This document shows, one piece after another, positions 37,215 through 41,283 of a stretch of 64,000 bases of DNA (position 1 is its first letter; each line of letters opens with the position of its first letter). The notes beneath the pieces are model-generated. The model ran no database searches and was not told the origin of the DNA. It worked only from the letters and a program-made list of their open reading frames with translations. This DNA is from Xanthomarina arctica (GTDB taxonomy: Bacteria > Bacteroidota > Bacteroidia > Flavobacteriales > Flavobacteriaceae). Made by a program: the position numbers and the translations under genes. The stretch spans positions 496,001 to 560,000 of the forward strand of contig NZ_BMFQ01000003.1 in the NCBI RefSeq assembly GCF_014638915.1, written 5' to 3'.

Positions 37215-37344
37215 AGGTATTTCCCATGCAAATGGGAGTCTTTTAAATAAGCTGTTAGAAAATTCGTGTAAATATATAAAAAACACCTCTAATGTTCACT
37301 TAGAAAACTATATTGAAATTCTTATAAAATCCACTCGAAGGGAC

Positions 37345-37376
37345 AAAAAAAGCGCTCCAATTAGAACGCTTTTTTT
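37345..37376 (-). terminator. Terminator of the 145-residue lipoprotein gene
   Basis: Arms AAAAAAAGCG and CGCTTTTTTT enclose an inner pairing TC/GA around CAATTA; the 3' end of the minus transcript runs into T residues. The central 28 bases match the terminator palindrome at 41312-41339 in 26 positions. Confidence 0.85.
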
Positions 37377-40596: not shown

Positions 40597-40703
40597 CTTA
40601 GATTATTAAAGGTCAGGTAATATAATAATAGATGTTATAAAATTCTATATTTATTTTAAAAAACATTTTAAAACATGCCTAAAGTTGGCTTAAGGGGACA
40701 ATA

Positions 40704-41283
40704 AAAACACCCCTAAAGTTTTTTTAGGAATCCGTGTTGAAATCCTAACAAAGTCCCCTCAAGGGGACAATTAAATTTTTAGAAAGTTTTCAAGTGAAGG
40801 ATATATAAAATTTTATAGTAAATTTAAATAATGGCAAATAAAATAATTCCATATAGATCTGACCTAAAATTCTTGGCTAGAGAGCTTAGAAAAAACAGCA
40901 CCCTTGCCGAAGTGATTCTTTGGCAGAATATTAAGCAAAGAGCTTTAGGTGTTCAGTTTCATAGGCAAGTTCCCATGGTCAATTATATTGTAGATTTTTA
41001 TTGTCATGAGATAGGTTTAGCTATTGAAATTGATGGTTCCATTCATGACCATTCTTTTCTGGAAGATGCTAAAAGACAAGGAGAAATTGAAGCTTATGGC
41101 GTTACTTTTATACGGTTTACCAATGAAGAGGTGAAAAAAGATTTGTTTAATGTTTTACTTGCTTTAGAAGATAAAATTCATGAATTATTGGGTTAGTTGT
41201 TTCCTGAAATTTTGCTGTTTTACCTCCAGAAAATGAAGGCAAACTACTAAGTTGTCCCCTTGAGGGGACCATAGGGGTGTTTT
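40704..41283. mobile_element. Putative inverted-repeat-bounded cassette carrying a DUF559 nuclease gene
   Basis: Outer inverted repeats AAAACACCCCTA (40704-40715) and TAGGGGTGTTTT (41272-41283), and inner ones GTCCCCTCAAGGGGACAA (40753-40770) with its exact reverse complement (41252-41269), enclose the nuclease gene. Each inner repeat is itself a hairpin (GTCCCCT/AGGGGAC). On the left, 37 bp separate outer and inner repeats; on the right only 2 bp. The unit is about 580 bp. No transposase is present; mobility is inferred from structure only. Confidence 0.55.
40831..41196 (+). CDS. DUF559 (Vsr-like) endonuclease-domain protein
   Basis: A 121-residue protein of the DUF559 family, which has the very-short-patch-repair-like restriction endonuclease fold. 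The family pattern is complete: LRKNSTLAEVILWQNIKQ, VQFHRQVPMVNYIVDFYC, then the acidic site EIDGSIHD (about 69-76) and VTFIRFTNEEV. Glu/Asp in VDFYC, EIDGS would bind the metal. The biological role of stand-alone members is unknown. It is flanked on both sides by nested inverted repeats, and lies alone between two minus-strand genes. Confidence 0.85.
   Translation: MANKIIPYRSDLKFLARELRKNSTLAEVILWQNIKQRALGVQFHRQVPMVNYIVDFYCHEIGLAIEIDGSIHDHSFLEDAKRQGEIEAYGVTFIRFTNEEVKKDLFNVLLALEDKIHELLG

Follow-up and report, generated by a model that had tools for sequence, protein, structure and literature searches.

What is a 121-codon gene of the DUF559 family doing between two nested pairs of inverted repeats in the genome of Xanthomarina arctica? 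The locus lies in a stretch of 64,000 nucleotides (hereafter the window; contig NZ_BMFQ01000003.1 of assembly GCF_014638915.1, positions 496,001 to 560,000) and was singled out by an original prediction that took it for a cassette-like mobile element. The answer we favor, at a probability of about 0.62, is an old resident copy of a mobile element that has DUF559 as its sole gene and terminates in inverted repeats able to form hairpins; DUF559 would be the enzyme that moves a REPIN-like family. The idea of a cassette-like element is retained for its recurring architecture, its unit ends, its empty sites and its dispersal, whereas the copy in the window looks resident and movement by DUF559 is what we infer. 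The locus is made up as follows, all features being given on the forward strand.

40673..40701, +: decayed extra copy of the left repeat, 23 of 29 bases being those of the intact left repeat of a congener (G001)
40704..40718, +: outer (tail) part of the left repeat, AAAACACCCCTAAAG, whose first 12 bases pair with 41272-41283 as exact reverse complement; unsplit in G001
40719..40752, +: 34-bp insert splitting the left repeat; G001 and G005 lack it at their orthologous loci
40753..40770, +: inner left palindrome, GTCCCCTCAAGGGGACAA, a perfect inverted repeat of 41252-41269; hairpin of -5.8 kcal/mol
40831..41196, +: DUF559 nuclease gene, 121 aa (PF04480, E 9e-29)
41252..41269, +: inner right palindrome, TTGTCCCCTTGAGGGGAC, pairing with 40753-40770
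41272..41283, +: outer right arm, TAGGGGTGTTTT, exact reverse complement of 40704-40715

Both the inner 18-bp and the outer 12-bp arms are perfect, as had been proposed, and the inner pair is the sole exact inverted pair of at least 15 bp with starts no more than 700 bp apart in the 64-kb window. We could also confirm that an inner copy folds alone (6-bp stem, -5.8 kcal/mol as single-stranded DNA, equalled by 2 of 200 shuffles); the 32-nt right end as a whole folds no better than its shuffles (33/200). Outer and inner repeats are spaced by 37 nt on the left and by 2 nt on the right, so that the left side does carry the expected ~35 extra bases. A second AAGGGGACAAT is indeed found there, one base away from where it had been placed (40692-40702 instead of 40691-40701). 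In contrast to the suggestion that two insertion footprints overlap on this side, its letters are better read as one decayed extra repeat plus a 34-bp insert. The best 29-mer elsewhere in the window, with the element excluded, matches the G001 left repeat at 20/29 bases, versus 23/29 at 40673-40701. The left repeat is unsplit in both G001 and G005, and the G001 element has clean 30-bp arms at both ends (24 scored as net match). Moreover, the letters at 41252-41280 are a 29-bp end common to G001 and to a locus of another genus (L120). No third copy of the inner repeat was found in the genome with up to two mismatches allowed. As for a DDE insertion sequence, no DDE transposase lies between the inverted repeats, the 121-aa DUF559 gene being the only one.

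The window protein scores 99.9 bits against PF04480, for a curated cut-off of 20.6, and belongs by profile and fold to the DUF559 family that includes YcjD, VsrA and NGO0050; we take this family to be COG2852. Residues D55, F56, E66, G69, H72 and D79 are invariant in 37 sequences including the window protein. In line with the predicted Vsr-like nuclease fold, the structure model (pLDDT 91.6) found as nearest PDB structure 3hrl, itself a DUF559 protein, and then the catalytic domain of the homing endonuclease I-Bth0305I (E 3.6e-4), while Vsr itself was a weaker match (E 0.3). Judged from this model, the fold is Vsr/homing-endonuclease-like. The gene is under strong purifying selection, with dN/dS values (NG86) of 0.035, 0.045 and 0.048 for three species pairs.

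Then, we scored the flanks of other DUF559 genes for inverted repeats, taking up to 450 bases without gaps (+1/-2). DUF559 occurs in 143/299 family genomes, from which we drew 30 loci of the DUF559 search, 80 more of its best-scoring listed places and the genus loci. Of the 125 domains found by profile, 120 were tested after dropping two of L016 (which is L053) and three fragments. A score of at least 12 was reached by 54/120 and of at least 14 by 35/120, the latter comprising 28/76 free-standing and 7/44 in-frame genes; at the same threshold, mismatched flanks gave 6/360 and shifted windows 0/82. A cross-phylum sample of 80 named loci, the top-ranking ones among 237 relatives retrieved with a single query and hence leaning to its subgroup, left 76 with enough flank (L169, L172, L191 and L213 were dropped). 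Here 48/76 scored at least 14 and 26/76 at least 25, against 28/380 and 6/380 for mismatched flanks and 0/152 for shifted windows; the mismatched flanks that score do so because the motif is common to several species. Arms can be long, with 53/53 matches in Methylosinus, 41/41 in one Bacteroidales genome and 110/114 in Sinorhizobium meliloti Ak57. Below the strict score of 14 are 85/120 family and 28/76 cross-phylum loci. The E. coli ycjD gene has repeats downstream only (inverted-repeat score 8), and the flanks of L323, another DUF559 locus of Sinorhizobium, score 9 and form no inverted pair.

Ordinary places are not flanked in the same way: besides the shifted windows, a control nuclease of similar size, UPF0102, gave 0/29 at a score of at least 13 (one of 30 loci was dropped). 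In contrast, small GIY-YIG genes of the family genomes (L268-L297) reached 10/27 at a score of at least 14, with three of 30 dropped, which indicates that the pairing of a nuclease with repeats is not unique to DUF559. Their flanking repeats are of another type (TGTCATTCTGAACGAAGTGAAGAATCT, TCTCGACTCCGCTCGA), making a second nuclease-repeat pairing; among the papers covered by our literature search, none joined GIY-YIG with repetitive extragenic palindromic sequences.

Repeat types follow the relatedness of the nuclease. By comparing the 76 free-standing family genes pairwise, with same-genus and same-locus pairs excluded, we observed that flank similarity rises with nuclease identity (rho 0.41; 0/500 permutations as high). 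A flank match of at least 14 was seen for 9% of 76 pairs at 30-35% identity, 4-5% at 35-45% and 53% at 60-70%, some of these matches falling in the gene start. A palindromic stem of at least 6 lies within the matched stretch in 199/376 matches at 50-70% identity. Co-ancestry of whole loci may add to the correlation at high identity.

Some DUF559 copies stand in frame within essential genes. Ten such frames run against Pfam hold DUF559 and a host domain in one open frame, the hosts being leucyl-tRNA synthetase (1), methionine synthase (4), RecG (1), HemD (2), histidinol dehydrogenase (1) and a class I tRNA synthetase (1) that reads as IleRS. Among the 120 rows, in-frame hosts amount to 17 LeuRS, 9 MetH, 7 RecG, 9 HemD, 1 IleRS and 1 HisD, tallied by motif or frame length with part of the rows run against Pfam. 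In a midpoint-rooted DUF559 tree, built from few columns and with many forks left open, one branch (99/91) has the LeuRS, MetH, RecG, IleRS and HisD copies all on the same side, and a second branch (100/100) holds the HemD copies together with one free gene.

Several sites bear on mobility. First, in genome G221, a single MetH frame contains two DUF559 domains at unrelated positions. These two copies can be aligned without gaps over exactly 418 bp (82.5%), with terminal inverted repeats of ~27 bp, and their flanks outside the 418 bp are unlike; a relative (L020) has a lone in-frame palindrome at the second MetH site. Second, of the five genomes of the window's genus with a MetH match, one (G002) has an occupied site and four (G000, G001, G004 and G007) an empty one; three others gave no match. 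Third, the genes flanking the element of S. meliloti Ak57 abut on a plasmid of Shinella sp. PSBB067 (82% identical DNA), with neither repeat nor DUF559 between them, which makes this an empty site. No target-site duplication is visible at the genus MetH, G221 MetH and Ak57/Shinella sites, all of them much diverged. Within E. coli we found no clean empty site at ycjD, because in other strains the eef operon takes the place of ycjD, as a passage of PMC12817139 indicates. As a separate observation, MetH of G001 (L136) has an in-frame insert of ~8 residues (HASRVRTSREGTSRDL region) that is missing from four other genomes of the genus and is possibly another translated repeat.

At the locus of the window, the neighbouring 577-aa gene is found in seven of the eight genomes of the genus, that of the window included. 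The element lies beside it in three of these seven (G000, G001 and G005). The other four (G002, G004, G006 and G007) have neither the element nor the adjacent LRR gene at this place, and another gene comes next, which on reading is the amidohydrolase that follows the LRR gene in the window. The locus is thus not invariably occupied among relatives. On the far side of the LRR block that these four congeners lack together with the element, positions 37318-37346 of the window resemble the element repeat at 20/29 bases; this is perhaps a decayed repeat bounding an accessory block. Where its relatives hold the element, G006 has a lone half palindrome CCTCAAGGGGACAA and another hairpin (L049:1370-1425), the half palindrome being either a scar or a separate insertion.

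Since the same locus is occupied in three species and the gene is under such strong purifying selection (dN/dS 0.035-0.048), the window copy looks like an old resident, not recently mobile, and a recent arrival is ruled out by the same two observations. Given its damaged left end, this copy may no longer move whole. In another genus (G144, L126), a DUF559 gene 77% identical lies by the same two neighbour genes but is itself in reverse orientation; beside it are two inverted pairs of ~157 bp that have similar ends, one of them damaged, and contain no gene, as well as a 40-bp perfect palindrome (L126:1-1110). Among four other relatives, the same kind of repeat occurs at L120, L118 and L109, and none was found at L114 by the pattern used. 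These four loci have no neighbour gene in common with the 14 kb of the window that were compared.

Similar repeats are also dispersed away from the nuclease gene. By searching for the palindrome of the genome's other DUF559 locus, CCCCTCTT, independently of the gene, we found it in 29/299 family genomes, and DUF559 is carried by 26 of these 29 versus 117 of the 270 others (Fisher p 9e-7). Among the matches listed, 24/79 palindrome copies lie at most 500 bp from a listed DUF559 gene, in 18/28 genomes; copies and genes both being counted among the matches listed, this may overlook some neighbours. A related palindrome has 0 to 162 forward copies in 25 genomes or records that were picked for their DUF559 locus, with a match in 23/25, against 0 or 1 copies for the reversed-palindrome control. 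Of the copies listed for two of these genomes, 20/22 in one are closely paired at spacings of 115-128 bp, and 37/52 in the other at 73-242 bp. Reading twenty such stretches revealed inverted units that contain no DUF559 gene but have ends similar to the ends of DUF559 units. Within one genome, unit ends are alike at 83.6% over 61 bp (L166 vs L313) or 91.3% over 69 bp (L218 vs L309); some other comparisons of gene-less and DUF559 units gave no match. In E. coli, a 44-bp repeat downstream of ycjD is present in 5377/5426 genomes, at a median of 19 places and at most 35.

Two clusters were observed beside these dispersed copies. The genome's second DUF559 gene (L003, G000:C3:306442-355381) sits in an array of ~280-bp palindromic repeats, of which 10 matches were found, all within 49 kb of one contig. 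In G079 (L125), two DUF559 genes with identical domains lie 1.4 kb apart in a cluster of ~140-bp repeats.

In the model that we propose, DUF559 elements would be the gene-bearing members of REPIN/MITE-like families in many phyla, and the gene-less inverted pairs with like ends their non-autonomous members. The DUF559 enzyme would recognise the end repeats in a folded or cruciform state and cut at or beside them, after which host repair or replication could copy or re-insert the unit. DUF559 would thereby move, or once have moved, its own unit together with gene-less derivatives. The window copy would have been kept by selection on the nuclease, with its left end damaged. A broader proposal, which we put forward more tentatively and to which we would give slightly less than even odds, is that DUF559 defines a separate class of transposable elements: a unit of less than 500 bp with two hairpin ends and one Vsr-fold nuclease, inserting in frame into essential genes without splicing, and whose gene-less derivatives would be palindromic repeats, with no enzyme assigned to them, in many phyla, those of E. 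coli, rhizobia and Caulobacter among them.

The alternative that competes best, although we consider it unlikely, is that the repeats are moved by another system (a HuH RAYT, an insertion sequence or template switching during replication), DUF559 being carried between copies or trimming hairpins to limit damage. In S. meliloti Ak57 a repeat pair of ~130 bp stands on either side of the gene, and ISRm16 interrupts the right-hand pair, an arrangement that is composite-like. The element ends are present at 11-14 places in each of 12 other S. meliloti records listed, none of which is among the records listed with a DUF559 match to the window protein; plasmids thus carry the ends without a DUF559 match, so that the gene need not share their replicon. 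The three palindrome genomes of 29 without a DUF559 match point the same way. Against these observations, DUF559 is the sole gene that fits in the 418-bp MetH unit, the repeat type tracks DUF559 relatedness across genera, and the pairing recurs across phyla.

It is much less probable that the locus is a homing element, in which DUF559 would cut alleles that lack it and gene conversion alone would carry the gene into that one site, with the palindromes as by-products. This would agree with a homing endonuclease as the nearest fold outside DUF559, and with in-frame copies whose hosts in different genera are repeatedly LeuRS, MetH and RecG and which largely cluster by host gene. However, two copies at unrelated MetH sites and dispersed gene-less units with like ends both require more than homing. 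We gave still less credit to a Vsr-like host repair nuclease for which the nearby palindromes would only be binding or regulatory sites. The purifying selection on DUF559 could, judging from the sequences, reflect a host function instead, and two papers fit with repair: PMC12907096 links VsrA of Caulobacter, a protein with a DUF559 domain, to DNA damage in cells that lack a methyltransferase, and a YcjD profile finds Vsr (PMC1189080). Yet such a role would leave unexplained the in-frame copies in LeuRS, MetH, RecG and HemD as well as the dispersed pairs. Finally, ordinary transcription terminators or chance palindromes are hardly credible and were ruled out, for although hairpins do lie near gene ends, the shifted windows and the UPF0102 control give 0, arms extend up to 114 bp with 110 matches, and both arms fall inside the host frame in six of the seven in-frame rows scoring at least 16.

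If DUF559 is the partner of such repeats, an abundant family of unknown function gains a role and several repeat families gain a common origin. CIR, RIME and box C are presumably the repeats that lie next to DUF559 in Caulobacter, Sinorhizobium and E. coli, a link suggested by their similar form. To our knowledge, no enzyme has been assigned to any of these three, and many bacterial genomes contain tens to hundreds of short palindromic repeats for which we know of no assigned enzyme. Since the nuclease-repeat pairing recurs in distant bacteria, sometimes in frame within essential genes, our data suggest that DUF559 is the missing engine behind several short dispersed repeat families. E. coli would then offer a testable model, with ycjD adjoining a multicopy repeat, and the copies in LeuRS, MetH, RecG, IleRS and HemD would represent a mobile gene surviving inside essential proteins without splicing. 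PMC10969869 presents CIR as a Caulobacter MITE located between genes, and RIME is named in a reference title of PMC2873474. In the titles, abstract starts and passages covered by our search, which left subscription journals mostly outside, no tie between DUF559/COG2852 and palindromic repeats was found, and the family is given a repair or unknown role, never that of a mobile element as in our reading; the portions seen of a REP survey (PMC3733652) do not mention DUF559.

The locus can be compared with known systems. A small nuclease gene flanked by inverted palindromic repeats is the layout of RAYTs and REPINs. The original prediction of a RAYT-like logic served by a different enzyme is apt as regards architecture, since DUF559 elements resemble the REP/RAYT systems (TnpA-REP, REPtron) in three respects. 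First, a small nuclease gene lies between inverted palindromic repeats, in the window as in the 35/120 and 48/76 loci. Second, similar repeats are dispersed, often as inverted pairs, in DUF559 relatives, the window repeat itself having no other genomic copy. Third, enzyme type and repeat type go together, as they do for TnpA-REP according to PMC8266576. Unlike these systems, the enzyme is a DUF559 protein with a predicted Vsr/homing-endonuclease fold instead of a HuH Y1 transposase, and some copies are in frame within essential genes. We did not adopt membership in REP/RAYT, because the defining HuH enzyme is absent. Among EDxHD/Vsr-like homing endonucleases, the catalytic domain of I-Bth0305I, which represents the EDxHD family (PMC3943268), is the nearest solved structure outside DUF559. 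In contrast to I-Bth0305I, the DUF559 protein has just 121 aa and no extra DNA-binding part; we saw no intron or intein at the DUF559 element, and its ends are palindromes dispersed in relatives. Membership among homing elements was likewise not adopted, as non-homologous sites are used. Lastly, Rickettsia palindromic elements and bacterial MITEs likewise place palindromic DNA in frame within unrelated genes (PMC10969869), whereas the DUF559 element adds a nuclease domain in the same frame.
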